From a virus, in the IMG/VR virus record IMGVR_UViG_3300032675_000040, positions 1 to 46,158 of that record: a stretch of 46,158 nucleotides of DNA. One strand, 5' to 3'. Shown here piece after piece: positions 10,652 through 46,158 of this stretch; positions within the stretch are counted from its first letter, which is position 1; every line of letters starts with the position of its first letter. Both the position numbers and the translations under genes were made by a program. The notes beneath the pieces are model-generated. The model was given only the letters and a program-made list of their open reading frames with translations, did not search any database and was not told the origin of the DNA.

Positions 10652-10807
10652 TTGCGTTCAATGTCCAAGATTTTGGGTTGTTGTCCATTTTTGAGTGGCT
10701 ATGGCGTGCAACACATTGGGGAGTTTTGCCGTACTATTCAGCTATCTTCTGGACAGACGTGTGAGCAGTGCCAAGTGGCACAAATACATGAACGTCCAAC
10801 CCCTCGA

Positions 10808-10843
10808 ACCCGCCCCTGAGCAAGACTCACGGCGGGTTTTTTT
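10808..10843 (+). terminator. Rho-independent terminator before the ParB-methyltransferase gene
   Basis: ACCCGCC (10808-10814) pairs with GGCGGGT (10831-10837), with a 16-nt loop, and is followed by a run of Ts to 10843. It ends the early operon or a short leader transcript made in the 200-nt gene-free gap after 10,651. The next ATG (10852) lies only 9 nt after the T run, leaving no room for a separate promoter, so the downstream genes depend on readthrough, antitermination or transcript processing. Confidence 0.75.
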
Positions 10844-10857
10844 ATGTCCGGATGCCA

Positions 10858-12111
10858 ATGAGCACACTGCAGATTCATTACCGACCGATTGATTCGCTGA
10901 TTCCCTACGCCCGCAATGCCAAGCAGCATTCGGATGCGCAAGTGGCGCAGATCGCTGCCAGCATCCGTGAGTTCGGCTGGGGCGCACCGATTCTGGTGGA
11001 TGGTCAGAACAATGTGATTGCGGGCCATGGCCGGTTGCTGGCCGCCCGCAAGCTCGGCATGACAGATATTCCCGTCGTGCCGCTGGAACATCTGACCGAC
11101 ACCCAGCGCCGGGCACTGATCCTGGCCGACAACAAGATCGGTGAAAACGCATCATGGGAAGATGAACTGCTCGGCATTGAATTGGCTGAATTGAAAGAAG
11201 CTGGCTTCGACCTTGGGTTGACGGGATTTTCGCCGGAAGAGTGGGAAGCATTGATTGCAGGAGACAATGCCACTGACGGTCTTACCGATGATGATGCCGT
11301 TCCCGAGGTAACCGAAACGCCTATTTCCAGAACCGGCGATGTATGGCTGCTGGGCGAGCATAAGCTGCTGTGTGGCGATGCCACCAAGTCCGAGGACTAC
11401 CAGACGCTGCTCGGTGACGAACTGGTCGACATGACGTTCACCGATCCACCGTACAACGTGAATTACGCCAACACCGCCAAAGACAAGATGCGCGGCAAAA
11501 ACCGTCCCATCCTGAACGACAACCTGGGTGACGGATTCGGGGCGTTTCTCGTTGCCGCCTGCCAGAACATTCTGACCGTCACAAAGGGTGCGGTCTACAT
11601 TGCCATGAGTTCCTCGGAACTCGACACCCTGCAGTCGGCCTTCCGCACTGCTGGCGGCAAATGGTCAACGTTCATCATCTGGGCCAAGAACACTTTTACG
11701 CTTGGACGTGCCGATTACCAGCGCCAATATGAGCCGATTCTGTATGGCTGGCGCGATGGCACCGATCACTTCTGGTGCGGTGCCCGTGACCAAGGCGACG
11801 TCTGGAACATCAAGAAACCACAGAAAAATGACCTGCACCCAACGATGAAGCCGGTCGAGCTGGTGGAACGTGCCGTGCGCAACAGCAGCAAGACACAGGA
11901 CATCGTGCTCGACCCCTTCGGCGGCTCAGGAACAACGCTGATCGCCTGCGAAAAAACAGGACGTCGGGCACGACTGATCGAGCTCGATCCGCAGTATGTC
12001 GATGTGATCGTTCGTCGCTGGCAGGACTACACCGGACAAGCAGCAAAACGCGCCAGTGATGGCGCGACATTCGGACTTCCGTCCGAGATGGATCAACCGG
12101 CGATCGTGTAA
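10858..12111 (+). CDS. ParB-like domain fused to a beta-class DNA methyltransferase
   Basis: 417 residues. Residues 8-75 are a ParB/Srx-like N-terminal domain (IREFGWGAPILVDG and IAGHGRLLAARKLG). The C-terminal half is an amino-methyltransferase: DPPY at 196-199 and, much later, DPFGGSGTT at 352-360. Motif IV before motif I marks the beta group, which makes N6-methyladenine or N4-methylcytosine. No restriction gene is beside it, so it is an orphan enzyme that may protect phage DNA or mark it before packaging. Starts at 10852 or 10858 are both possible; neither has a strong ribosome binding site. Its 3' end overlaps the convergent DUF3489 gene by 19 nt. Confidence 0.87.
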   Translation: MSTLQIHYRPIDSLIPYARNAKQHSDAQVAQIAASIREFGWGAPILVDGQNNVIAGHGRLLAARKLGMTDIPVVPLEHLTDTQRRALILADNKIGENASWEDELLGIELAELKEAGFDLGLTGFSPEEWEALIAGDNATDGLTDDDAVPEVTETPISRTGDVWLLGEHKLLCGDATKSEDYQTLLGDELVDMTFTDPPYNVNYANTAKDKMRGKNRPILNDNLGDGFGAFLVAACQNILTVTKGAVYIAMSSSELDTLQSAFRTAGGKWSTFIIWAKNTFTLGRADYQRQYEPILYGWRDGTDHFWCGARDQGDVWNIKKPQKNDLHPTMKPVELVERAVRNSSKTQDIVLDPFGGSGTTLIACEKTGRRARLIELDPQYVDVIVRRWQDYTGQAAKRASDGATFGLPSEMDQPAIV

Positions 12112-12566
12112 ATCCGCTCGCTGCCTGGTTCCTTGCTTGAGGTGATTTCCAGTCCGAGTTTCTTCTTGAACGCGCCGGCAAAGGTGCCGCGCACCGTATG
12201 TGCCTGCCACCCAGTCGCTTCGCAAATTTGTGCGATGGTCGCGCCCTCGGGACGCTTGAGCATGGCGATCACCTGGGCTTGCTTGCTGTTCTCGCGCGTG
12301 CGTGGCGTGGCCGATTCGATGACCGCATCAAGTGCCTCGACGCTGACCGGCGCCTTGCGTGGAATACCGAGCGCGTCGTAACCCTCGGCAGCGATAAACC
12401 AGTCCGTCTGGTCTGTGGTGATGAGGGCGCGATTGACGAGTCCTGCAAGGACCTTGTTGCGCGCGCCACCTTTGATGTTTTCCGGGAACCAGACGATCTT
12501 GCCTTCGGTGTGCTGATGGGCGTAAGCGAGGATGGCGTGTTGGGCGGGTGTGAGTTGAGTTGTCAT
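12093..12566 (-). CDS. DUF3489 family protein
   Basis: 157 residues on the - strand. The C-terminal domain with TRENSKQAQVIAMLKRPEGA and ICEATGWQAHTVRGTFAGAF is the hallmark of DUF3489, a winged-helix-like fold of unknown role that is frequent in proteobacterial mobile elements. The N-terminal half (TTQLTPAQHAILAYAHQHTE) is also typical. Start: the ATG at 12566 with AGGAGAT upstream, rather than the longer open frame. It is transcribed against the phage late genes, together with the 65-residue gene upstream, and is thus a candidate for a separately regulated (lysogenic) gene. Confidence 0.85.
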   Translation of the reverse strand: MTTQLTPAQHAILAYAHQHTEGKIVWFPENIKGGARNKVLAGLVNRALITTDQTDWFIAAEGYDALGIPRKAPVSVEALDAVIESATPRTRENSKQAQVIAMLKRPEGATIAQICEATGWQAHTVRGTFAGAFKKKLGLEITSSKEPGSERIYTIAG

Positions 12567-12582
12567 GTGTATCTCCTGAAAT

Positions 12583-12780
12583 TCAGACGTTGTGGATTTG
12601 CTTGGCGCGATCGAAGCCGACCCAGACGCCTTGGTCATCGAGACCGCGCGAGGCGAGTTCTTCGCGGGCCAGTCGGTTGAGGTCGAGTTCGCCGCGTGCT
12701 GCGGCGGCAAGCACTTTTGTCAGCGCGATTTGGATGAAACCGATTTCATCGACGGTGAATTCGTTGCTGGTGTAGGACAT
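12583..12780 (-). CDS. Small protein co-oriented with DUF3489 gene
   Basis: 65 residues, start at the ATG whose complement ends at 12780 with AGGAACC upstream. It is acidic with one helical domain (VDEIGFIQIALTKVLAAAAR) and a C-terminus rich in Asp, Gly, Trp. It looks like a small domain family that accompanies DUF3489 in other elements; I am not certain of a name. The 16-nt gap to the next gene on the same strand implies a two-gene operon whose promoter would lie in 12,781-12,899, between it and the divergent HNH gene. Confidence 0.65.
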   Translation of the reverse strand: MSYTSNEFTVDEIGFIQIALTKVLAAAARGELDLNRLAREELASRGLDDQGVWVGFDRAKQIHNV

Positions 12781-12899
12781 GGTTTTGGTTCCTCTGGGTG
12801 GTTGATGGTGTTCGTATGAACGCTTCATTCCCGCGAGAAGCCAAGCGGAATCTCCCAGTAAATCGCTTCTTTTTTGAATCAGTTGGAAATCCACCGCAA

Positions 12900-31902: not shown

Positions 31903-32968
31903 TCGACCGTCCCTTGCGGATCTGATCAATCGCACCACCAATGATGTGTTCCAGCGGCTGCAACTGGACAATGTGCTTCGCCGCATGGACGCCCAGGTGT
32001 ATGCGCGGGTGCTGGCCGGTGTCGCCCACGGCCTGTACGGCTTCATTGAGTGGGTGAGCCGCCAGATCATCATCGATACCGCTGAGACCGAGTTTCTGGA
32101 ACGCTGGGCGTCGATTTGGGGCGTGCAGCGGCTGGCGGCCGCACCCGCAACCGGCGCCATCACTTTCACGGTGACGCCAGGCGCAGCCGACATTCCGTCT
32201 GGAACGCTGGTACAGACACTGGATGGCACACAGTTCCAGACCACGGCCGATATCACCGTGAGCGGAACTCAGGCTACTGCGCCGGTTGCTGCGTTGGTGT
32301 CTGCGGCGGCTGGCAATAACTATTCGGGGCAGACCGCCAATCTGGTCACGCCCATCCTCGGCGTGCAGACCTCTGCCTTGCTCGGTGTGCTGTCCGGCGG
32401 GAGTGATCTCGAGTCGGACGACAGTTTGCGCGCCCGGCTGCTCAATCGCATTCAGCAGCCGCCACAAGGCGGTGACGCCAACGACTATGTGCAATGGACC
32501 CTGGGCGCACCGGGTGGCGCGGCGACGCGCGCCTGGTGTGTACCGGAGCAATTCGGCCAGGGCACCGTGGGCGTGGCTTTTGTTTGTGATGGCAATGGTG
32601 AAGGTAATGGCGCGAGCAGCGCCATCCTGCCCACCGCTGCGCAGATTGCGACGGTGGCTGCCTACATTGACGGCGTGCGCCCGGTGACTGCACACGTGAC
32701 CGTGTACGCGCCGACTGCCGTGCCGATCAATTTCACGATCCAGGGTCTGAATCCTGACACCGTGTCCGAGCAAAACGCGGTCACGGCCGAACTGGCTGAC
32801 TTGCTGGTCCGTGAAGGGGAGCCAGGCGGCGTGATTTTGCTCTCGCACATGCGCTCGGCCATCTCGGCTGCCGCCAGCGAGTGGGACTACGTGCTGATCA
32901 CACCAAACGCCAATGTCTTGATGGCCGCTGGGCAGATCCCGGTGATGGGCAGCGTGACATGGCAATAA
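31895..32968 (+). CDS. Baseplate J-like protein (Mu gp47-like)
   Basis: 357 residues. FLERWASIWGVQRLAAAPAT, GAADIPSGTLVQTLDGTQFQ and LRARLLNRIQQPPQGGDAND are hallmarks of the baseplate J family (T4 gp6, P2 gpJ, Mu gp47). It forms the outer wedge ring. The ATG at 31895 overlaps the previous stop and gives the usual N-terminus (RPSLADLINRTTNDV). It overlaps the following gene by 10 nt. Confidence 0.92.
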   Translation: MFNRPSLADLINRTTNDVFQRLQLDNVLRRMDAQVYARVLAGVAHGLYGFIEWVSRQIIIDTAETEFLERWASIWGVQRLAAAPATGAITFTVTPGAADIPSGTLVQTLDGTQFQTTADITVSGTQATAPVAALVSAAAGNNYSGQTANLVTPILGVQTSALLGVLSGGSDLESDDSLRARLLNRIQQPPQGGDANDYVQWTLGAPGGAATRAWCVPEQFGQGTVGVAFVCDGNGEGNGASSAILPTAAQIATVAAYIDGVRPVTAHVTVYAPTAVPINFTIQGLNPDTVSEQNAVTAELADLLVREGEPGGVILLSHMRSAISAAASEWDYVLITPNANVLMAAGQIPVMGSVTWQ

Positions 32969-33603
32969 CGAATCAGGCCAAACAGCCCATCCAGCAGGTC
33001 AGCCAGGCACTGGCGCCAGACGACTATCTGGCCATGTTGCAGGAACTCCTGCCCTATGGCCCGGCGTGGACCGATGATCCGGACGCTGCCGTCACGCAGA
33101 TGCTCACTGGCCTGTCGCAGGAACTGGCCCGGCTGGATGCACGCAACTGGCAGCTCATCGAAGAGGCTGATCCGCGCACGAGCAATGAGCTATTTGCAGA
33201 CTGGGAACGCGTTGCCGGTTTGCCCGACCCCTGCGTTGCGGCGCTGGCGGGCCAGCAAACGCACGCGCAGTTGCAAGCGGCGCTGGTTTCCAAACTCGTG
33301 CAAGTGGGTGGCCAGTCACGCGCTTATTTCATCGCCGTAGCCAAGGCAATGGGCCTGGCCATCACGATCACGGAAGGTTGGCAGCAGGTCGATACCGTCA
33401 TGTCTGCGGTGAACAACCCACTGGCCAACGCTGGCTGGATCTACGCCTGGACCATATCCGTTGCGCTGGGTAACACAAAAAGCACGCTCACCGTCAAAGG
33501 TCGCGTGTCGGACCCGCTTGCGGCATGGGGCAACACGATGCTCGAGTGCGTCATGCGCCGCCTGAAGCCGGCTCATACCACCTTGCTGTTCAGTTACACC
33601 TAA
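32959..33603 (+). CDS. DUF2313 tail protein (Mu gp48/YmfQ-like)
   Basis: 214 residues. LAPDDYLAMLQELLPYGPAW near residue 20 and WERVAGLPDP near 80-90 are diagnostic for DUF2313 proteins, which link baseplate and tail fibres (P2 gpI-like). The C-terminal LECVMRRLKPAHTTLLFSY is typical too. The next gene is where a tail fibre gene should be, and here a very short fibre-like protein is found. Confidence 0.9.
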   Translation: MAITNQAKQPIQQVSQALAPDDYLAMLQELLPYGPAWTDDPDAAVTQMLTGLSQELARLDARNWQLIEEADPRTSNELFADWERVAGLPDPCVAALAGQQTHAQLQAALVSKLVQVGGQSRAYFIAVAKAMGLAITITEGWQQVDTVMSAVNNPLANAGWIYAWTISVALGNTKSTLTVKGRVSDPLAAWGNTMLECVMRRLKPAHTTLLFSYT

Positions 33604-33621: not shown

Positions 33622-34140
33622 ATGGACAACCGCGTCTGGGAAGCCAATGCTGCCCAAACCCCGCCTGCCGTGCCCGGCAATCCGTCGATCGGATTTCCCA
33701 CGGATGGCAACCCAACCACGAATACGCCGGCCACGACGCCGGGGGATTATTGGTTCTATCAAGTCAGCGAGGAAATCCGCAACGCGATCATCGCGGGTGG
33801 GTTGACGCCTGATCGCACCGCACTCAACCAGCTCACGCTGGCGATCAATGCCTTGGTTCAAGCTGCCATCACCTCAGCATTGGCGTCCTACAAACCGCCG
33901 GCACCCGCACCGACCCCGACCCCGACCCCGGCTCCGACACCTGCTCCTGCTCCTGTGCCAACGCCAACGCCAACGCCAACGCCAACGCCAACGCCAACGC
34001 CAACGCCAACGCCAACGCCAACGCCAACGCCAACGCCGGCTCCGACGCCGACACCCACACCGACGCCTGCACCAACTCCAACGCCCGCGCCTGTACCGCC
34101 GCCACCACCTCCGCCGCCTCCACCCCCACCTCAAGGCTGA
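33622..34140 (+). CDS. Short tail-fibre-like protein with Pro-Thr/Pro-Ala repeat stalk and 12-proline end
   Basis: 172 residues. Residues 41-83 ([40 protein letters not shown]) have the helix pattern found in the N-terminal part of many phage tail fibres. From about residue 92 the rest is almost only Pro, Thr and Ala in PT and PA pairs, ending with 12 consecutive prolines and QG. No adhesin domain follows. The repeat DNA includes 12 exact ACGCCA units (33961-34032), so copy number can change without breaking the frame. The stalk would be an extended polyproline helix. Translation of the proline run probably requires EF-P. It follows the gp48 gene where the fibre normally lies. Confidence 0.78.
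33961..34032 (+). repeat. Tandem hexamer repeat ACGCCA x12 inside the fibre-like gene
   Basis: Twelve exact copies of ACGCCA, followed by a partial ACGCC. The frame reads Pro-Thr repeats. Each unit is two codons, so slippage changes stalk length in steps of one PT pair without frameshift. Flanking DNA carries related, less regular CCGACC and CCGGCTCC repeats. Confidence 0.92.
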
Positions 34141-34152
34141 TAGGAGAAGCAC

Positions 34153-34779
34153 ATGTATTTGCAAATGGCCGGTCTGGTATTCATGCCCACCGGCGTTATC
34201 GTCTATGTCATCAACTACGTCGATCTGGATCGGCAGCATCTTGCCCGGGAACTCGACGAGCGCTACGAACCCTTCCACCACTGGGGCGAAGTGCCAGATG
34301 GGTTCAGCTACCGCAAGCCCTACCTGTATCGGCTACGTGACGGGGTGGTGGCAGCAGTGGGACAAGACACTGCGCCCGATACGGAAGACTACCGTTTTCA
34401 CTATCGCCGCCTGTTGCTGATGGATCGTGTGCACGCAGCACTGCGTACCCAGCGCGCCGGATTCACGCAGGGGTCGTTGCCGCTGCAGGATCGCTTATTG
34501 GATCTGGCCTATGGTGAGTGCCAGCAATTGGGCAATGGCGAGCGTGCGGGCAGTGACATTTCTCCCGGTGGCGAATTGCCCTTGCTGCAAGCCATCGCCG
34601 ACGCTTGGGAAACGACGCTGACCACGGCCGCCGATCGGGTGCGCATGGAATACGCCGATCGCCAGGATGCACTGGTGCAGTCCGAGGTGCGCCGCCTGAA
34701 GACGCTGGCGCAGGTACGTGCGGCACGTTGCGCCGCCGATCTTGATCCGCTTTTTGTGAGGTTCGGCTGCCATGACTGA
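34153..34779 (+). CDS. Unrecognised protein between fibre and asparagine-synthetase-like gene
   Basis: 208 residues of unknown function. The N-terminal 30 residues are hydrophobic (LVFMPTGVIVYVINYVDL) but too polar at the ends for a clear membrane anchor. The centre and C-terminus are helical and rich in Arg, Glu and Leu (EVRRLKTLAQVRAARCAADL). A ribosome binding site TAGGAGAA precedes the ATG. Its stop overlaps the start of the PP-loop enzyme by 8 nt, indicating coupled translation and perhaps a joint role. Placement after a fibre-like gene suggests a chaperone or a fibre-modifying partner, which is only an inference. Confidence 0.7.
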   Translation: MYLQMAGLVFMPTGVIVYVINYVDLDRQHLARELDERYEPFHHWGEVPDGFSYRKPYLYRLRDGVVAAVGQDTAPDTEDYRFHYRRLLLMDRVHAALRTQRAGFTQGSLPLQDRLLDLAYGECQQLGNGERAGSDISPGGELPLLQAIADAWETTLTTAADRVRMEYADRQDALVQSEVRRLKTLAQVRAARCAADLDPLFVRFGCHD

Positions 34780-35806
34780 GTTATTGGTTGCGCGTAATCT
34801 GATCCAGGGGAACCCACTGGCCAGCGGGTTGCGCAAGGTCGTGGGCGGCGTGGTCACGACCTCGCGTTTGCAAGCCAAGCCGGACTTGTTGCGCTTTGAT
34901 GCTTGCTGCCCGATGCCCAGCCCGGAGGGAGCCAACCTGTCGTTTGCCGATTGCTGCGATATCCGTGCCCAGGCCTTGCTGGCAGCGAACACGCGTCTGC
35001 ACATCATGTGGTCTGGCGGCATTGATTCGACCGTGACCTTGGTGTCCATGCTCAAAGCACTGCCGTCCAATGAACATGACCGGCTGACCGTATTTCTATC
35101 GAGTCACAGCATCGCGGAAAACCCGGCCTTCTACCATGACCACATTGCCGGCAAGCTGGCTGTGCAGCGCACCGTGGGTAAGGCCGGACTGTATGACGAG
35201 GTGGTGGTAACGGGCGAACTGGGTGACCAACTCTTCGGCTCCGATCTGATGCTTGAATGCACGCGGCGCCTGGGCTTCGAGAGCCTCTTTTTGCCACACG
35301 AACAAGTTCTGCCGCGCCTCTTTGCCAGTCTGGCTGGGGATGCTGTCATGGGGGACGCGCTCTACCAGCGCTATGCGCCGATTGCTGTTGAAGCGCCGTA
35401 CCCATTGGTGAGCACACAGGACTTTTTGTGGTGGTGGAATTTTTCGCAGAAGTGGCAGCACGTGAAATTCCGCCACCTTCTGTATGAAGAGCGCGCTGAC
35501 TACCGGCCGCTGTTCGGTCGGGTGCAGCACTTCTTCGATACCGATGATTTTCAGCGCTGGAGCCTCACGCATCCTGCAGAAAAACTGGGCCACCGCATCG
35601 ATACCTACAAGATGCCAGCCAAGCGATACATCGCTTCGTTCACCGGCGATGACGCGTACCTGGCCAAGTTGAAGATCGGCTCCCTGTGCCGGGTTTTTAA
35701 ATACCCGCCGGTCGCAGCAATTACCAGTGATGGCCTGCCAGTCGACCAGGCTGGTTTGCAGGCATTCGTTTGCCTAGCCCGCGATAGCAGTCCCGGCAGT
35801 ACCTGA
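34772..35806 (+). CDS. Asparagine-synthetase-like PP-loop (AANH) enzyme without glutaminase domain
   Basis: 344 residues. The adenylating PP-loop SGGIDS sits at 81-86 after the strand RLHIMW, and TGELGDQLFGSD at 147-158 corresponds to the second conserved block of asparagine synthetase C-domains (normally GEGADELFGG). There is no N-terminal glutamine amidotransferase domain: the protein begins with about 75 residues that carry paired cysteines (C45-C46, C61-C62). Related enzymes make asparagine or form amide bonds in peptide cyclisation (lasso and beta-lactam pathways), activating a carboxylate with ATP. The substrate here is unknown; context of phage tail genes, cupin and hydroxylase points to protein modification. 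Starts in an 8-nt overlap with the previous gene. Confidence 0.8.
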   Translation: MTELLVARNLIQGNPLASGLRKVVGGVVTTSRLQAKPDLLRFDACCPMPSPEGANLSFADCCDIRAQALLAANTRLHIMWSGGIDSTVTLVSMLKALPSNEHDRLTVFLSSHSIAENPAFYHDHIAGKLAVQRTVGKAGLYDEVVVTGELGDQLFGSDLMLECTRRLGFESLFLPHEQVLPRLFASLAGDAVMGDALYQRYAPIAVEAPYPLVSTQDFLWWWNFSQKWQHVKFRHLLYEERADYRPLFGRVQHFFDTDDFQRWSLTHPAEKLGHRIDTYKMPAKRYIASFTGDDAYLAKLKIGSLCRVFKYPPVAAITSDGLPVDQAGLQAFVCLARDSSPGST

Positions 35807-36277: not shown

Positions 36278-36988
36278 ATGCAAACTGGTGACTACATTGA
36301 TGGCCGACATGGCATGTATCCATCGCAGGCCTGGCGCTTGTCCAAGGACACCCAAACCCATCTGACCGTGCCGCCTTTCTCGACGCTGTATGGCTATGTG
36401 ATTACTGGCGCTGCCGATGGGGCGGCACACCTCGTTGCTGGCCAGCATGCATCGGCACCCGGCGCTCTGCTTCGCAATGCGGGCCAAGGCCAGTATTTTT
36501 GCCATGCGACCGGTGCTGAAGCAGCCACGCTGTCCCTTGCCGGGGAGGGTGATGCCCAGGTTTTTGCGGTCGTGCGGCATGGCTTTCGGGGACAAGGCTT
36601 GGTCGGCGGTCCAATCGAGGCATCGGGACGCTTGTGCTACATCGACAACTGCTCCGATTCGCTCCTGGTCTACCCGCCGCGCCGTGGCGACCCCAGCCTG
36701 AACCACCTGTCGTTTCCTGCCGGTGTGCGCCAGTCGTTTCACATTCATCCGTCGATCCGATTAGGGGTGGTGGCGCGCGGCACGGGGTTCGCCTGCTTTG
36801 CCGACCGGGAAATTCCGCTGGTCGCCGGCACGCTCTTTTGCATTGAGGAGCGGGAACTGCATCGCTTCCGCACCGACGATGATCGGCTCGATGTGATTGC
36901 CTTCCATCCGGATGGTGACTGGGGGCCGACTGACCAGGATCACCCGATGCTCAACCGCACGTATCTCGCGGCGGTGCGCCATGAGTGA
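36278..36988 (+). CDS. Cupin-fold protein of the modification cassette
   Basis: 236 residues. The C-terminal half is a cupin barrel: FHIHPSIRLGVVARGTGFA with H155 and H157 as the first metal ligands, then PLVAGTLFCIEERELHRF with H195 in the second motif. The N-terminal half is beta-rich and could be a second, degenerate cupin. The metal site appears complete, so an enzyme (dioxygenase, isomerase) or a metal-dependent sensor are both possible. It overlaps the prolyl hydroxylase start by 8 nt and is tightly behind the small Thr-rich gene, so the three are translated as a group. Confidence 0.78.
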   Translation: MQTGDYIDGRHGMYPSQAWRLSKDTQTHLTVPPFSTLYGYVITGAADGAAHLVAGQHASAPGALLRNAGQGQYFCHATGAEAATLSLAGEGDAQVFAVVRHGFRGQGLVGGPIEASGRLCYIDNCSDSLLVYPPRRGDPSLNHLSFPAGVRQSFHIHPSIRLGVVARGTGFACFADREIPLVAGTLFCIEERELHRFRTDDDRLDVIAFHPDGDWGPTDQDHPMLNRTYLAAVRHE

Positions 36989-37652
36989 TTCGGCCACGAT
37001 CCTGCTGAACTATCCGCCAGCGCAGGTCTTGGCCAGCGGCCGGCGCTGTCAGGTACTGGCCGCTATCAAGCAGCCGAATGTGGTTGTGCTGGACCAGCTT
37101 CTGGATGCCGCCGCGTGCCAGGCAGTGATTGACCTTGCCCGGCCGCGCATGAAGCGGTCCTCCGTAGTCCACCACATTGATGGCATACGGGTCGATGACT
37201 CGCGCACCAGTTCTGGCTGCCATTTTCAGCGAGGTGAGCTTCCAGTGGTTGCGGATATCGAGCAGTGCATTGCTGACCTCACCGGCATACCCGTTGAGAA
37301 CGGCGAAGGCCTGCAGGTGCTGAACTACCAGCCAGGCCAGCACTACGTTCCGCACTGGGACTACTTCCCACTGGAGAGTGCGTCATCTGCCGACATCGTT
37401 CGACCAGAGAAGGGTGGTCAGCGCATCGCCACCTTTCTGATTTACCTGAACACGGTGCCCATGGGTGGCGAAACGGAGTTTCCAAGCGTCGGCATCAAGG
37501 TGGCCGCTGTCCAGGGGAACGCCTGTTTCTTCTCCTACTGCGATGCAGAAGGCCAACTCGATCCACGCACCCTGCACAGCGGCAACGCTGTGATTGAGGG
37601 TGACAAGTGGATCGCAGTCAAGTGGTTGCGCGAAGCTCGCGTGCCCGCGTAA
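36981..37652 (+). CDS. Prolyl 4-hydroxylase-like 2-oxoglutarate/Fe(II) oxygenase
   Basis: 223 residues. All active-site features of the P4H family are present: RTSSG at 75-79, the iron ligands H125 and D127 in HYVPHWDYF, H199 in TLHSGNAV, and K209 in GDKWIAVKW to bind 2-oxoglutarate. The double-stranded beta-helix core is complete, with FLIYLNTVPMGGETEFP between. Start at 36981 overlaps the cupin gene by 8 nt; the long upstream frame is not used. The family hydroxylates proline in peptides and proteins. A target rich in PT/PA dipeptides is encoded 3 kb upstream in the same phage. It should be active; its true substrate is not known. Confidence 0.9.
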   Translation: MSDSATILLNYPPAQVLASGRRCQVLAAIKQPNVVVLDQLLDAAACQAVIDLARPRMKRSSVVHHIDGIRVDDSRTSSGCHFQRGELPVVADIEQCIADLTGIPVENGEGLQVLNYQPGQHYVPHWDYFPLESASSADIVRPEKGGQRIATFLIYLNTVPMGGETEFPSVGIKVAAVQGNACFFSYCDAEGQLDPRTLHSGNAVIEGDKWIAVKWLREARVPA

Positions 37653-38920: not shown

Positions 38921-39814
38921 TTACCAGTTGTTCCAGAGGTTAATTACTGCATTGATGAAAGCCTCTCCGTTCGCTTCTGGCCAACAGGTAAGTGAATCGT
39001 CGCGCAGCAGATAGTACAACTCGTTTGCACAGACAAATTTTGTCTTGTCCGCCTCTGTCTGAATCCAATTAAATGCGTTGATGAAGCAATCGCCGTAGCT
39101 CGATCCAAATTTTTCTTCCGGTACGTTGTAAAGCAATCCCTCGATGTAGTAAGAGGGAGCGCCACCTTCTTCAAGAAGACCGTTGACGACGAGATGGCTA
39201 CGCATATTCTTCAGGACGCGCATCATCGGCTTCAACCATTTGTTGGCATTCTGGTGCTTCGTCGTAAGATTTTTGCGGTGCTGTTTTGGATAGTTGTCGA
39301 CTCGAATACCAGCAGACGTAAAAAAGCAGATGCCGTCGGTGTAGTTTTCTAAGCTTGAGTTCTTGAACGAATGGTAGCGACGGAATGCCGTGGCAACTAT
39401 CACATCAGCCTTGCGGCGATTGCCGTGTGCTGCAATGGAAATTGCCTTTTTACCGTCCTTGACGTCATCACCATACTGGTCGGTCAATACCTTTAGTACG
39501 TCGCGCTTGAAATCCGAATGGCAGTATGTTGCATCTGAATACATCCGTTTGTAGTTTGATTTCTCATCCTCGTTGAGTGATTCCAGATCACTGTAAAAAC
39601 AATCGTCGATTTTAATTACGATATCGACATCGCTCTCTGCGAATATATTCGTGTCATTGCCGTATGAGCCTTGCAAAAAGCACTCGAAATTTCTGTCTCC
39701 ATACTGCGTAGTCGAGGCTTCCAGCACATTCTTTATGCTGTTGTAGGTGCTGCTTGATTGCGTTATCGAGCCTTGGTGTGACCACGTTTCCAACTGAGAT
39801 TCAGGTATACCCAC
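38921..39814 (-). CDS. CBASS CD-NTase (cyclic oligonucleotide synthase)
   Basis: 297 residues from a GTG start with GGGAGG a few bases upstream; the longer frame to 39919 overlaps capV and lacks this signal. A nucleotidyltransferase core of SMODS type is clear: [10 protein letters not shown] with GSY at 49-51, D62 and D64 in ESDVDIVI, and a third Asp D137 in RRKADVIVA. The enzyme makes a cyclic nucleotide signal on phage infection. It lies 10 nt downstream of capV in the same direction, as in capV-first CBASS operons. No cap2/cap3 or other accessory genes are present, so this is a type I (two-gene) CBASS. The C-terminal half is helical. Signal identity cannot be read from sequence. Confidence 0.88.
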
Positions 39815-39824
39815 ATTGCCTCCC

Positions 39825-40781
39825 TCACATAAGGAATTTCTTAAGATCAACCTCACGCGATGCAAACGACTCTCGCCCTCGTTGCCGCAGGATGTTGAGC
39901 TTCTCAAGGTCGTGCTCAAGAAGATCGGTTGCCATCTCAGGGCGCTCGAAAATATCGCTGATCCGAATAGTCGGTACGTCCTTGAACAGAATGGTCCGCA
40001 ACTGATCCATCGACTGCGTATTGATTTCGAGTGTTTTCTGAAGCAACTCGATGCTGTTGAACGGGAATTTCTTCACCAACCACATAAGCAGTTTCTTTGG
40101 CTCTGGATAAACACCGACGCCGACGTTGATCACCCGCAAGTTCCTATGGTCTTTCTTAAGCGCCGCGACTGCATCGGCGATTGCGTAGAGCGTCGGATTG
40201 TTTGCACAGTAGCCACCGTCTATCAGCTCGATCTTGTCGCCAGCAGACGTGGTCACGACCTTGCGCTCAAAGAATGGGAATGCCGAACACGATGCCTGCA
40301 CTGCATCCGCGACGGATACGCCAAAACCAGGTACGAAGGTGCCCAGCATTCCATGTGCTTGTTGTATATTCCCCTTGAAAATCATCGGCCTTTCTGTCAT
40401 CCACTTCGCCGTGACCACACCGATCCCAGTTTTCACGTCGGCGAAGGTTTTATCAGTGAAAACTGACTTGGCAAGACCCGCTAAAGCAGTAGTGCGACCC
40501 GCCTGAGTGCGGCGCGACATGACAGTCGGTACATGCTCTTTGTAGAGGTCGTGGATTTGGTCAACATCGTAGCCAAGGGAGATGAGCGCCGCGATGATTG
40601 CCCCAGTGCTCGTGCCAAAAACAAGGTCGAATCGCTTGTAGAGTGGGCAGCCCAGCATTGCCTCAATTTCTTTGAGGACTCCGAGCGTGTAAAAGCCCTT
40701 TGCACCGCCCCCGTCGAGTGCAAGGATGCGGCAAAGGCCATCACTTTCGTATTCTCTATTGAGCGATGATCGCGGGCCCAT
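39825..40781 (-). CDS. capV: CBASS effector: CapV-type patatin-like phospholipase
   Basis: 318 residues. The Ser-Asp dyad is intact: GTSTG with S58 and DGG with D188, plus the oxyanion motif DGGGAKG at 23-29. CapV enzymes are switched on by the cyclic dinucleotide from the CD-NTase and degrade the membrane, killing the infected cell. The gene precedes the CD-NTase by 10 nt on the same strand. It starts at ATG 40781 with a weak AGAG box. DNA is visibly more AT-rich than the phage genes. Downstream of hsdR in the same orientation, so it may share the restriction promoter. Confidence 0.9.
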
Positions 40782-40888
40782 CTTTTTCTCTTATTGGAGC
40801 AAAGGTCCAGGTTGGTGTAGAAACGATCACAACAATATCCGTATCCGCCAGCAGCCATATGGCCTTAAGCGAAGAGGGGTGTTTGGTC

Positions 40889-41020
40889 TTAGCCATTGCC
40901 AACTCCACTGCCATGTCTCGGCATGTTCCACATCGACGACAACGTCGCGGTCTGCTGCAGCACCGTTTGTACTGCTGCGTCTTGCAGATCAGGCGTGTAG
41001 CCGACGGATGAAGAACACAT
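40889..41020 (-). pseudogene. Remnant of a different type I restriction subunit C-terminus
   Basis: In the 238-nt gap between hsdR and capV, starting at an ATG that overlaps the hsdR stop (TGATG), the - strand reads VGYTPDLQDAAVQTVLQQTA, ending 43 residues on at a TAA. This string matches what I remember of the C-terminal end of EcoEI/HindI-like HsdR (DUF3387) proteins (YPPDLQDAAVQTVLQQAE). The hsdR upstream is a different, EcoR124-like type whose own C-terminus is complete. So the piece is probably the scar of an older restriction gene replaced at this locus. Too short to function. Confidence 0.45.
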
Positions 41021-44000
41021 CAGACCTTCCCCCCCACACCTTTGAACTTCTCAACGAAAGCAGCAATTTTCTGGAAAACGCTTTGCTTTTTGGTCAGGTA
41101 TTGCGGATTAAGCGGGCTCATTTTGGGCAGAACGGCATTGAGCTCAGTGCCATTATCACTGGCGAACTCACGTTTTAGCGAGGTAGTGATATAGCGTCTG
41201 GCCGCCTCTGCATTCAGGTTCTCGGCGTTAATCAGCTCGTGTGCCTCACGCTGTTGTTCCGCTTGGGCAAAGGTGAAGAAGGCGTCAATCACACTGGCCT
41301 TATCGCCAATCTGGTCCAGGTCAGTTTGGTTAATAAAATCAACCAGCAGGCTTTCTTTGGCGCGGTTGCCCAGGCTCGCGCGGATCACCCGACGTACGTC
41401 TTCAACCAGTGAGGCTTTGTCCTTGACCTTTTTACTATTCTCAAAAATCAATTCCAGAATGTAGTCCAGGTTGATCTCTTGTGACTTCAGCAGATCTACC
41501 TCAAAGACCACGTCATCCCAATCGATAGTGGCTTTTTCTTTTTCAGTGGAAGATTTTTCCCGACGAAGCCAATCGCGAACATCGTTGTAAGTTGAACGGT
41601 AGTCCTGAATTTTCCGTTCAGCCGGTAACTTGATCGCTTGCAGCGCTGCCAGATCCTCATCGCTTAAATAATGCTTGGCCTTGAACTCCTCAACCACCAC
41701 AGGATCATTTATGTCGACGTTTTGCAAGGCCTTCAGACTGGCAAATTCATCGTAGTTTTGCAGCACGTTTTCAACGCGCAAATACTCACCAAACAGCTTC
41801 GCGAAAGCCTTTTTGTCGGACTCTTTTTCAATGGCTGCAGGATCAGGAAAGCGCTGCTCCAACTCCTTCACCACCTCCACAAACCCACGTCGCGCTTCAC
41901 CGGTCACCAAGTCGGTAAAGCCTTCCATGTATTCCTTGTAGCTCTTTTCCAGCACCACGTTCTTGGTGTTTTTATCGCCAAACAAGGTGATGGCGTCAAT
42001 CGTCGCCTGCTCCAAATCGCGGAAGGTAACGATATTGCCGAAGGTTTTAGTGGCGTCAAAAATACGGTTGGTGCGCGAATAGGCCTGCATCAAACCGTGG
42101 TAGCGCAAGTTTTTATCAACAAACAAGGTGTTCAGCGTGGGGGCATCAAAGCCGGTCAGGAACATGCCCACCACAATCAGCAGGTCGATTTCCTTAGTCT
42201 TAACTTGCTTGGCAAGATCGCGGTAATAGTTCTGAAAACCATTGCTATCCACGCTGAAGTTGGTTTTGAACAGCGCGTTATAGTCAGCTATGGCCGCGCT
42301 TAAAAACTCTTTGGCGCTGCTATTCATGGCTGAAACATCAAAGCTTTCATCCAGAATATCGCCTACGGCATCCTGTTCTTCATTGGCCGCAAACGAGAAG
42401 ATGGTGGCGACTTTCAGTGGCTTATCACTGCCTTTTTGCAAATCCATGAAAGACTCGTAATACAGCTTGGCGGCATCCACGCTGCTCACGGCAAACATGG
42501 CATTAAAACCCTTGGCACCCGCTTGCAAGCGATGGGTTTTTTGCCGGAAGTTATTCAGGATGTACTGCGAAATCTCGCGAATACGGTCGGGGTGCAACAA
42601 GGCTTGCTTGTTTTCCGCCGCGCTGAGTTTTTTCTCGTCCTGCTCACTTTCAATTGCTTTGAAGTGCGGGCGCACATCGTTGTAGTCTACCTTGAACTTG
42701 AGCACCTTTTCATCACGAATGGCGTCGGTGATCACATACGAATGCAACTCCCGACCGAACACGCTGGCAGTGGTGTCCGCACCCAGGGCGTTCTGCGGGA
42801 AAATCGGCGTGCCGGTAAAGCCAAACTGATAGAACTTTTTGAACTTCTTCTTCAGGTTTTTCTGAGCTTCACCAAACTGGCTGCGATGGCATTCATCAAA
42901 AATAAACACCACCTGCTTGTTATAGATGGGCAGGTCGCCTTCGCCTTTCATCAGGTTATTGAGCTTCTGGATCGTGGTGACGACGATCTTGTTGTCGTCC
43001 TTATCTAGGTTACGCTTTAGGCCAGCGGTGCTGTCAGAGCCATTCACGCTATCCGGCGAAAAGCGCTGGTATTCCTTCATGGTCTGGTAATCCAGGTCTT
43101 TACGATCCACCACGAAGAACACCTTGTCGATGAACTCCAGTTCAGTGGCCAAACGTGCCGCTTTAAAGCTGGTCAGGGTCTTGCCCGAACCGGTGGTGTG
43201 CCAGATAAAGCCACCGCCCTCTAGATGGCTCCAGCTCTTGGCCTGATAGGCGCTGTTGATTTTCCACAAGATGCGCTCGGTGGCGGCAATCTGGTACGGG
43301 CGCATCACCAGCAGCGCATTGCTGACATCAAACACCGAATAATGCAGCAACACATTGAGCAGGGTGTTTTTCTGAAAGAACGTAGCGGTAAAGTCTTTCA
43401 GGTCTTTGATCAGGCTGTTATCCGCCTTCGCCCAGTTCATGGTGAAGTCGAAGCTGTTTTTGTTGCGCTGCGTGGTGTTGGCAAAATAACGGCTATCGGT
43501 GCCGTTGGAGATCACAAACAGCTGCAAATACTTGAACAAGGAATGCTCGCTGTTGAAGCTCTCTTTGCTGTAGCGGTGCACCTGATTAAAGGCTTCACGA
43601 ATGGCTACGCCGCGTTTTTTCAGCTCCACCTGCACCAGCGGCAGGCCATTGACCAAGATCGTCACATCGTAGCGGTTGGCGTGGCTGCCCGTTTGCTCAA
43701 ACTGCTTGATCACCTGCACCTTATTGCGAGCAATATTCTTTTTATCCAGCAGGTAGATGTTCTGAATATGACCATCGTCAAACACAAAATCATGGATATA
43801 GTCATCATGAATTTTGCGGGTTTTATCGACGATGCTGTCGCTGGGCCTGTCCAACCACGCCTCCACGAAACGTAGCCACTCACCGTCGGCAAATTGCATG
43901 TTGTTCAATGCCTGCAACTGCTCGCGCACGTTGGACAGCAGCTTCTCGGGCGTGTTTAAACCGAGGGCATACTCGTAGCCCTGATTCTGCAAGTCCTGAA

Positions 44001-44121
44001 TAAACTCCCGCTCCAGATCGCCTTCGCTCTGGTAGGTTTCAGCAACCTTCCATTCTTGGACGTACTTATCCAGAACAATGAAGCTGTTCGATTCGGCAAT
44101 GGGTTTGGTGTAATCAACCAT
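41020..44121 (-). CDS. hsdR: Type I restriction enzyme R subunit (EcoR124-like, type IC)
   Basis: 1033 residues from ATG 44121 (AGGAAG upstream, 8-nt overlap with the previous gene). The N-terminal nuclease has D152, E166 and K168 in YDVTILV ... VQVELKK, the PD-(D/E)XK set. The motor has Walker [10 protein letters not shown] at 309-317, DECH at 409-412, and later [10 protein letters not shown]. The C-terminal helical domain that contacts HsdM is present in full. It translocates and cuts DNA lacking the methylation pattern set by HsdM/HsdS. No breakage is seen, so the enzyme should be active. Confidence 0.94.
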
Positions 44122-45328
44122 TTTGTTCTTCCTGCTGCCAAAAGCCATAGTTGCTTTTCAAGTGATCGAGCAATAATTTGACCGTCGCCTTCTCCGCTTG
44201 CGTTGGTTCCGCAACGGTTTCATTGGATAGCGTGCTATGGCTTGTAAAATTGATAATTCTGCTTAGATAGAGCTGTTTGTCATCAGGCAGAAGCTCCGAC
44301 CACTTTGGATAGCCCAGAAAGCTGGCCGTTTTCTCGTAGAGATTCCGCAGCAGCGTGAAGTGATACTTTTCAATCTTGTTGTCCGCAATCGCCTGTTCAA
44401 TGGTTCGCTTTAAATGCAGATGATAGGAAAAGCTCTTGTTGGAATCACCAGGTTTTTCGGTGAGGGCAAAGCTACCATCTTCAAATCGATCCAGCATGTA
44501 GCAGGTTTTGCCGTTCAGCTCATTGAAAAGCACGTTATAAAACAGGGGGCTGTGCGTCGTAACGATAAATTTCAGAGAAGATTGACTGAGTTTGATCAAG
44601 CTCGCCAAGTTGACTGCTAGCTCAATCAAATGGGTTTCATCCAGCGAACTGACTGGATCGTCGATAAAAACATATTCAAGCTGATCAAACTGGTTTGTTT
44701 CTCGCTCGCCGTGGTCGGCAACATTGAGGATCGTCACCACCTGATCCAGTAGCGAGTAAAAAATACTCCAGATGAAATTGTTTTCTTCCGCCTTGGAGAT
44801 TTTAATATTTCCGGAGTGCTCATTATCGCCACGCTCCAGCGAGAAAGTTACCTCCGAAAATGCTTTGACAGTGATCTCTTTGTCGTCCTCGCCTTTTACT
44901 TTATATTCTTCGTTGAATCGCGGCGTAAGTTTGTCGCTGGCGTAGCGTTGAAAGCTGGTAATGATGTTTCGATCTTGCCCCTGATCTTTCAGCACCCAGT
45001 CGGTAAACGAGTTGGGCTGGATTTTCAGCTTGTGCTCGGCGTCCAGCTCCAGGTCGTTATCCCAGTAAAATAAATCTTCCGTGAGAGCGTTGTAATACAG
45101 GATTTTATTACGCGACAGCTCAGGCTGATCGCCCTCATTGTCATAGGCTTTCGGCGCGATCAGCTGTTTGAATTCCCTTGAAAGGCGTGTTTTTCCCGTG
45201 CCGTTGAAGGCATAGATCAGCTGCACTTTAGGAACCTGCGTTACCACCTCGACTTCAGTCGTTTTCTTATTCTTAACTGTTCTTGGTGCACTCAATTGCT
45301 GTGCAATTTCCGTTAAAGTCTTGCCCAT
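44114..45328 (-). CDS. prrC: PrrC-type anticodon nuclease (ABC-ATPase, tRNA cleaving)
   Basis: 404 residues, close to PrrC (about 396). N-terminal ABC-type ATPase: Walker A region [11 protein letters not shown] at 40-50 and Walker [12 protein letters not shown]. The C-terminal domain contains R328, E332 and H364 in [12 protein letters not shown] ... INFTSHS. PrrC's catalytic triad is, as I recall, R320-E324-H356, and the spacings (4 and 32) are identical here. In E. coli prrC sits between hsdS and hsdR of a type IC system, exactly the order found here. The nuclease is held inactive by the restriction complex and cleaves tRNA-Lys when a phage inhibits restriction. Overlaps hsdR by 8 nt. Confidence 0.85.
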
Positions 45329-45329
45329 G

Positions 45330-46158
45330 TTATGCCTCTACCTCTTCCTGCTTGGGAAAGCTCAACAGCAAATCGCGGTAATGCTCATATTGCTTTTGGC
45401 GCAATGCAATTTCGCGTGGCAAGCCTTCTTTGATGGAGTTGGTGAGGGCGTCGAATTTGTCCAGGATGTCGACGATTCGTTCTTTTTCTTCAGGTGAGGG
45501 ATTTGGAATGCTGATGCCATTTAAATTCTTTTGATTCAGTTTCGGTTGTGCTGCCCCTGAGATATAAGGCGTTAAATCAATACTGTTTAGATAAAATTCA
45601 ACATATCTTCTTTCAGCGTATGTCTCGAATTTGAGCACATGAGCGTGGTTGTTTACCCAGCTTTTCCCGCCAATGCTAAATGCTATTGGCGTGCTTCGTG
45701 CCAGCAAGTTCGCACCATCTTCGGAAACGAGCAAGAAATCACCATCGAAGATATAGTCTTTGACGTAATCGACAATGCCTGATGCACCATAGTATGGAAT
45801 ATCACCCGGATCTCTTAAACCACTCGTAATAGGTTTTCTCATCGAATCAAGATTCTCTGCCAGCTCCCCCAACGTCTTCCACTCCACGTCCCCATCTTCA
45901 AAACTCAACAACTGGTCGCGATAGTAGTCGTATTGTTTTTTGCGGGCGGTAAGCTCGGCGGTAAGCTCGGCGGTAAGCTCGGTGAAGGCGTCCAAAATGC
46001 GGACGATTTCGGCTTGGATTTCAAGCGATTTTTTGGGGTTTTCTGGGCAGGGGATGGGGATTTTTAGCTCATTCAAGACTGCCTGAGTTTGGCTTGGTAC
46101 GCCGCCCGCTTGGTTCATCTCGCCAAGACCTACCGTTGTTAGGAAGTAGTAAAAGAAT
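45330..46158 (-). CDS. hsdS: Type I specificity subunit, 5' part cut by the window edge
   Basis: The frame stays open to the right edge, so the ATG at 46118 is internal: the residues before it ([11 protein letters not shown]) read as the end of the first target-recognition domain. Then comes the central conserved helix with the repeat [20 protein letters not shown], the second recognition domain (about [17 protein letters not shown] through [20 protein letters not shown]) and the C-terminal helix with [19 protein letters not shown]. The TAEL units mark it as EcoR124/type IC-like. The gene ends 1 nt before prrC. hsdM should lie upstream, outside the window. Confidence 0.9.
45948..45982 (-). 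repeat. 12-bp tandem repeats encoding TAEL units in hsdS
   Basis: The unit GGTAAGCTCGGC (+ strand) occurs at 45948-45959, 45960-45971 and, with its last base changed, 45972-45983. It encodes the Thr-Ala-Glu-Leu repeat in the spacer helix between the two recognition domains. In EcoR124I/II a change from two to three TAEL units alters the gap length in the recognised sequence. The exact repeats allow slippage here too. Confidence 0.85.

Follow-up and report, generated by a model that had tools for sequence, protein, structure and literature searches.

Gene order around the synthetase gene

The window, by which we mean the whole stretch of DNA analysed, is a 46,158-base virus record with the prophage-like genome of a Mu-like phage. 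The synthetase gene sits 3' of Mu-like gp45-gp48 genes and a short fibre gene, and shares 8 bp with the upstream ORF (Table 1). A first-pass annotation had placed it in a tail operon, which is right for its position but incomplete for the content, since beyond the tail genes the operon also carries a cupin gene, a prolyl-4-hydroxylase homologue and then lysis genes. Copies of the enzyme, identical or 74-81% identical, were found in IMG/VR contigs, in Xanthomonas sp. GPE 39 and in X. albilineans genomes, and around the 74-81% identical copies, which lie in Xanthomonas prophages and other contigs, the genes stand in the same order. The gene is a single intact, complete ORF under purifying selection (dN/dS 0.05-0.11). 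All genes of the window cassette are under purifying selection as well, with dN/dS of about 0.05-0.18, and the baseplate gene gp48 likewise. The ORF is thus more than a chance reading frame, given the copies in the same order, its low dN/dS and the conservation of its motifs in 58 relatives.

Table 1. Features of the synthetase locus, in window coordinates.
Feature	Position	Strand	Basis or remark
Mu gp48-like baseplate protein	32959..33603	+	immediately 5' of the fibre gene; context
Short tail-fibre-like protein, 172 aa, candidate substrate, ends -QG	33622..34140	+	translation, PHROG, repeats
Tandem repeats encoding the Pro/Thr-rich tail of the fibre	33898..34124	+	repeat analysis
Partner protein, 208 aa, beta-rich N-terminus and helical C-terminus	34153..34779	+	overlaps the synthetase gene by 8 bp
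AsnB-type PP-loop synthetase domain protein, 344 aa, without glutaminase domain	34772..35806	+	translation, alignment, model, Foldseek, hhalign
PP-loop SGGIDST, residues 81-87	35012..35032	+	G82, G83, D85, S86, T87 invariant in 58 relatives
GELGDQLFGSD, residues 148-158	35213..35245	+	aligns with AsnB GEGSDEVFGGY; E149 in 51/58, D152 in 56/58
C-terminal lysine block K280..K284..K299-x-K301..S304	35609..35683	+	profile alignment and conservation in 58 relatives
Small protein, 108 aa	35949..36275	+	homologous to ~98-aa proteins beside the enzyme gene on several marine phage contigs
Cupin, 236 aa, conserved neighbour of the enzyme family	36278..36988	+	homologues in related loci
Prolyl-4-hydroxylase-type Fe(II)/2OG oxygenase	36981..37652	+	nearest solved relative Chlamydomonas P4H

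The fibre protein combines a tail-fibre-like N-terminus with a C-terminus of (Pro-Thr)n/Ala-Pro and poly-Pro repeats. Its relatives carry different repeats, and all those read end in Gly (-QG, -GG or -DG), with varying residues in front of it. Prolyl-4-hydroxylases hydroxylate Pro-rich repeats, which makes hydroxylation of the fibre tail by the downstream oxygenase a natural proposal. The oxygenase gene is intact, its product matches the Chlamydomonas enzyme (2jig) with an E-value of 2.6e-40, and its translation shows the HxD...H...K site as HWD, a distal H and a K. Viral prolyl-4-hydroxylases with collagen-like tail fibres have already been discussed (PMC9301287); there too, a prolyl-4-hydroxylase homologue stands beside a Pro-rich fibre, whereas the window homologue is one of several fibre-side enzymes, together with the synthetase and the cupin.

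The conserved residues of the cupin (H155, H157, H195, R161, H210 and H222) include histidines that suggest a metal site. Direct homologues of the window cupin were found in 30 related loci (E<=6e-10), and the reverse search, starting from the cupin, recovered the enzyme on 27 of 41 long cupin loci, on the same strand in 25 of the 27 and at a median gap of 7 bp. The 108-aa protein between the two genes reaches 95.6% in hhalign with its homologues from one group of marine contigs, where they adjoin the enzyme; as a common precursor it was set aside, its link to other small neighbours being weak. In three related loci (L009, L012 and L013), one or two additional minus-strand genes are inserted between the enzyme and the small protein, followed in L009 and L012 by a remnant resembling the C-terminus of the enzyme.

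The prophage end (38921-46118, minus strand) carries nucleotidyltransferase-like and patatin-like phospholipase genes, read by eye as a CBASS-like pair, and then type I restriction-like genes for an R subunit, an ATPase-like protein and an S subunit. These are probably anti-phage defence cargo.

Fold and conserved residues of the enzyme

The AF2 model of the enzyme, based like the conservation counts on an alignment of 58 relatives, has a pLDDT of 92.1 and a pTM of 0.91. Compared with the PDB by Foldseek, it best matches human ASNS (E 3e-4, probability 1.00), beta-lactam synthetase and carbapenam synthetase. All five solved structures with E<=0.001 belong to asparagine synthetase or beta-lactam synthetase, with carbapenam synthetase and the hydroxyamidotransferase TsnB9 slightly below this group. 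TsnB9 has the highest TM-score to the query, 0.46, within an overall range of only 0.3-0.46 for the AsnB-type matches. Among the best 50 PDB matches there is no tRNA thiolase, PAPS reductase, MnmA or TilS, and LarE scores below the AsnB-type structures. The best structural matches in BFVD include uncultured phage proteins named 'asparagine synthase'.

Profile comparison leads to the same class. Against a profile of ten AsnB proteins, hhalign gives 94-95% probability over the PP-loop and the GE-x-x-D block, pairing SGGIDS with SGGLDS and GELGDQLFG with GEGSDEVFG. The SGGIDST and GELGDQLFGSD motifs are conserved across the 58 diverse relatives, in which E116 and W220 are also invariant (58/58). 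The first-pass annotation had taken these two blocks as the mark of a carboxylate-activating PP-loop enzyme and had proposed a fold comparison, naming another PP-loop family as the outcome that would speak against it; the comparison returned the AsnB and beta-lactam synthetase group first and agrees with that reading. Assignment of the enzyme to the asparagine-synthetase-B-type, carboxylate-activating PP-loop class is well supported.

The C-terminal part has a signature of the family's own, WW..FQxWS..YKxxxK..KxKxxS, in which the lysines are retained by nearly all relatives (K280 in 55/57, K284 in 56/57, K299 in 56/57 and K301 in 55/57). In a weak part of the alignment, and hence with low confidence, K299-x-K301 aligns with the R-x-K-x-x-F of AsnB that holds the catalytic Lys. 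The paired cysteines C45-C46 and C61-C62, singled out earlier as unusual, did not prove to be a functional feature. Cys occurs in 10/58 relatives at position 46, in 15/58 at 61 and in 32/58 at 62, and at position 45 it is too rare to rank among the four commonest residues. The pairs are lineage-specific and no family feature, and a role as a thiol site was rejected on the same counts.

The earlier statement that the enzyme has no ammonia-supplying domain holds for the whole window, where GATase_7 (PF13537) is absent; the same profile was found in 14 of 14 control genomes. The ORF begins about 60 residues ahead of the PP-loop domain, and a class II glutaminase domain with Cys after Met is absent from the N-terminus of the enzyme. 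The partner protein was considered as a split glutaminase and rejected, since it has no Cys2 and a predicted layout unlike the Ntn fold. The window protein does not reach the Pfam cut-off for PF00733, and only two of the 58 relatives reach E 0.01 (best E 0.0026). It should therefore be named an AsnB-type synthetase-domain protein of a new phage family, and not an asparagine synthetase, because it has the fold, the SGGxDS PP-loop and the GE-x-x-D motif of the AsnB synthetase domain, whereas the Pfam cut-off is missed and the glutaminase is absent.

The window enzyme thus shares its SGGxDS PP-loop, its GE-x-x-D block and its fold with asparagine synthetase B (AsnB, ASNS; PF00733), and differs from it by the missing N-terminal glutaminase, the Pfam score and its own C-terminal signature. 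Beta-lactam synthetase, carbapenam synthetase and lasso-peptide cyclase reuse the AsnB fold for amide formation without external ammonia, and the first two are among the fold matches. All three retain a vestigial glutaminase-like domain, and their substrates are small compounds or RiPP precursors. Beta-lactam synthetase has Tyr where the window enzyme's motif has Glu. No leader peptidase was seen among the cassette genes scanned.

Distribution of the family and its partner protein

A family profile was built from the Xanthomonas-type copies and the two paralogues of Pseudomonas phage Cygsa01, and it recovered at least 443 relatives in IMG/VR. The window enzyme has no match in Pfam, its PHROG matches are weak and limited to the PP-loop, a single-sequence PDB search returned nothing, and the family has neither a Pfam nor a PHROG entry. 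Searching cultured phages by tblastn found the enzyme in Cygsa01 only and the cupin in none. Whatever the substrate, annotation has a real gap here: the family runs to hundreds of members and keeps its catalytic residues invariant, is missing from Pfam and PHROG, and has hardly any cultured representative.

In Cygsa01 (10721-12870), a 90-aa protein lies between the two paralogues, which are annotated as MnmA and stand beside a Gly-rich fibre; the MnmA names are probably wrong, and the fold comparison does not support that identity. Three other loci (L063, L064 and L033) hold three to four paralogues in one 12-kb phage stretch, and in L033 one of them directly follows a radical-SAM gene. In L065, L066, L073 and L140, the enzyme gene is followed by two more PP-loop genes in a row, of ~315 aa with SSGLDS and of 436 aa with SGGSDS.

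In most relatives, a partner of ~200-250 aa ends a few bases from the enzyme start, usually with a 4-8 bp overlap. In an alternative arrangement, partner-sized extra sequence is fused to the N-terminus of the enzyme, giving members of 568 aa. The partners fall into at least three alignable groups, and the helical C-terminal part of the window partner is common to one of them. Neither the window partner nor any of the 15 partner proteins searched matches a Pfam family. At one related locus (L055), the domain fused to the enzyme is Phage_tail_APC (PF16778, E 1.1e-12), with a PHROG match to tail fiber assembly (E 4.5e-9). The model of the window partner is of moderate quality (pLDDT 79.8, pTM 0.66) and structurally matches uncharacterised phage proteins and DUF4376 proteins, so that we can only infer that it is a tail chaperone.

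The connection to tail proteins rests on the partner gene upstream, on the L055 fusion and on the fibres beside the fused members of ~568 aa, which adjoin a Gly-rich fibre (PHROG 'tail fiber protein; host specificity'). A role on a tail protein is the best-supported context for the enzyme. In many large freshwater phage contigs, the partner-enzyme-cupin trio adjoins MazG/HAD/PhoH-type genes and not tail genes, according to our own reading of the sequences.

Candidate role in tail-protein maturation

We propose that the enzyme probably finishes a tail-fibre protein chemically. It would be an ATP-dependent, carboxylate-adenylating, amide-forming enzyme of AsnB fold and, because it has no glutaminase, would take its amine directly, as ammonia, a small amine or a protein amine. 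The partner would probably act as a tail-assembly-chaperone-like carrier delivering the substrate, and the enzyme, the partner and the metal-binding cupin would together finish a tail-fibre or tail-tip protein after translation. In the window, the likely substrate would be the Pro/Thr-repeat fibre, a choice in which we have moderate confidence; its prolines may be hydroxylated by the neighbouring prolyl-4-hydroxylase, and the synthetase would most likely act on the carboxylate of its C-terminal Gly. Taken as a whole, including the Pro/Thr-repeat fibre as substrate and its terminal Gly as site, this proposal has in our estimate an even chance of being correct. The earlier suggestion of a role on a virion protein gains support of context from the fibre gene, the chaperone-like partner or fusion and the prolyl-4-hydroxylase.

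The chemistry has parallels in RiPP pathways, where the AsnB-like enzymes TsrC, ScdTA and PesC carry out C-terminal amidation or nitrile formation on peptides (PMC13060819). The nitrogen that PesC uses comes from glutamine (or ammonia), and its cluster also hydroxylates Pro and Asp (PMC13060819). These enzymes activate a peptide C-terminal carboxylate (PMC13060819), a logic similar to that of the window cassette, and differ in acting on small peptides, the candidate substrate in the window being a phage tail protein. Our search of the available literature found no tail-fibre-modifying AsnB-like enzyme. If the proposal is true, phages use enzymes to reshape the tips by which they recognise hosts, with a chemistry familiar chiefly from peptide natural products; host range and virion stability would have to be read differently from sequence, as the letters of a fibre would not reveal its surface, and an AsnB-type ligase acting on a protein C-terminus without glutamine could be of use in bioconjugation.

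The modification site was approached through freshwater phages in which the partner, the enzyme and the cupin come after two further genes, one for a radical-SAM-SPASM enzyme and one for a tail-tip-like protein whose C-terminus is rich in Cys. Searching with the radical SAM gave over 550 relatives, and in many of them the Cys-rich protein is encoded immediately upstream. Extended by two more searches, the set provided 31 distinct loci that could be classified. The Cys-rich protein ends in Gly at 11 of 11 loci with the enzyme and at 0 of 20 without it (Fisher p 1.2e-8, for loci that are related). On the radical-SAM tree, only two concordant changes of enzyme and C-terminal Gly are seen (two to three on a smaller set). 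The association is therefore suggestive and not proof, as relatedness could explain it, and our confidence that the synthetase activates the C-terminal Gly carboxylate is weak to moderate. Simple C-terminal amidation or ligation of a small amine would fit the association just as well as the isopeptide crosslink considered earlier.

Other observations on the site point the opposite way. The marine Gly-rich fibres beside the 568-aa members end in -GATS or similar and the Cygsa01 fibre in -GALA, a search for an overall surplus of proteins ending in Gly close to the enzyme found none, and the trio often lies away from tail genes; either the site depends on the lineage or the C-terminal idea is wrong. 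A search of 20 cupin contigs without radical SAM, most of them with the enzyme, found no homologue of the Cys-rich tail-tip protein elsewhere on the contig, in a search that had no positive control. A broader scheme, which we consider possible but rather doubtful, is a modular, RiPP-like maturation of fibre tips, in which a chaperone-like carrier would bring a low-complexity tail built of Pro/Thr, Gly or Cys repeats to a combination of AsnB-type synthetase, cupin, prolyl hydroxylase and radical SAM-SPASM enzymes, the synthetase capping or coupling the C-terminal Gly carboxylate, possibly with covalent crosslinks or receptor-binding groups on the virion as the outcome.

An auxiliary or lysogenic-conversion enzyme that amidates a sugar acid or amino acid of the host, acting on a small molecule or surface glycan, would suit the prophage-like window genome and the metabolic genes among the neighbours in related loci, and there are known AsnB-like amidotransferases that act on uronic acids and on amino acids. 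We consider it unlikely in view of the conserved partner, the fusion to a tail-assembly chaperone domain and the place of the gene inside the late tail block, under selection like that on the baseplate gene; the clustered paralogues within one phage also suit several substrates better than one metabolite.

The precedent for hypermodification of DNA is SpCmoY of Synechococcus phage S-B43, which joins glycine to 5-carboxymethylcytosine in DNA and, like the window enzyme, is phage-encoded, glutaminase-less and AsnB-like (PMC12783734). A comparable ligase, attaching an amine to carboxylated bases of phage DNA, would agree with the occurrence of many members at a distance from tail genes in large T4-like phage contigs and with the ParB-plus-methyltransferase gene of the window (10852-12111). 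However, SpCmoY has 271 aa, acts on DNA with CmoA/CmoX, and aligns with AsnB (97%) but with the enzyme family at the PP-loop only (40%). The family profile matches nothing in the S-B43 genome, although it encodes CmoY, and the window holds no cytosine C5 methyltransferase (PF00145). Orthology to CmoY was rejected on these grounds, and since the window gene lies among tail genes and not DNA genes, we regard a DNA substrate as quite improbable.

That the protein is a degenerate relic, a non-catalytic PP-loop protein kept as a tail chaperone, could account for the loss of E149 in a minority of relatives, for a second motif of GECGAQMMG in one paralogue and for the chaperone-like partner, but it is very unlikely with G82, G83, D85, S86, T87 and E116 present in 58/58 relatives, K284 in 56/57, and all of them in the window copy. 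Least probable of all is a tRNA or cofactor sulfur-transfer enzyme of MnmA, TilS or LarE type, for which the annotation in Cygsa01, the rank of LarE as second-best fold group and best weak profile match, and weak PP-loop-only PHROG matches to QueC and PAPS reductase could be cited, against the higher scores of AsnB-type structures, the conserved E149-x-x-D152 and C-terminal lysine block, and the failure of all four cysteines checked to be conserved family-wide.

Returning to tail-protein maturation, the pair formed by a tail-tip-like protein whose Cys-rich C-terminus is conserved (CNCACTYNC...CxCxC) and the radical-SAM-SPASM gene directly downstream of it is itself widespread (L120, L126, L131, L160, L188-L401), and the Cys-rich protein ends by lineage in -GG, -CACW or -NCNC. 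It looks like a RiPP-type maturation of a virion protein. A cultured phage, Achromobacter phage JWF (NC_029075), carries a radical-SAM gene inside its tail-fibre block, adjoining a fibre protein that resembles T4 gp36 and has a Hint domain, and is a possible laboratory model for the radical-SAM branch.
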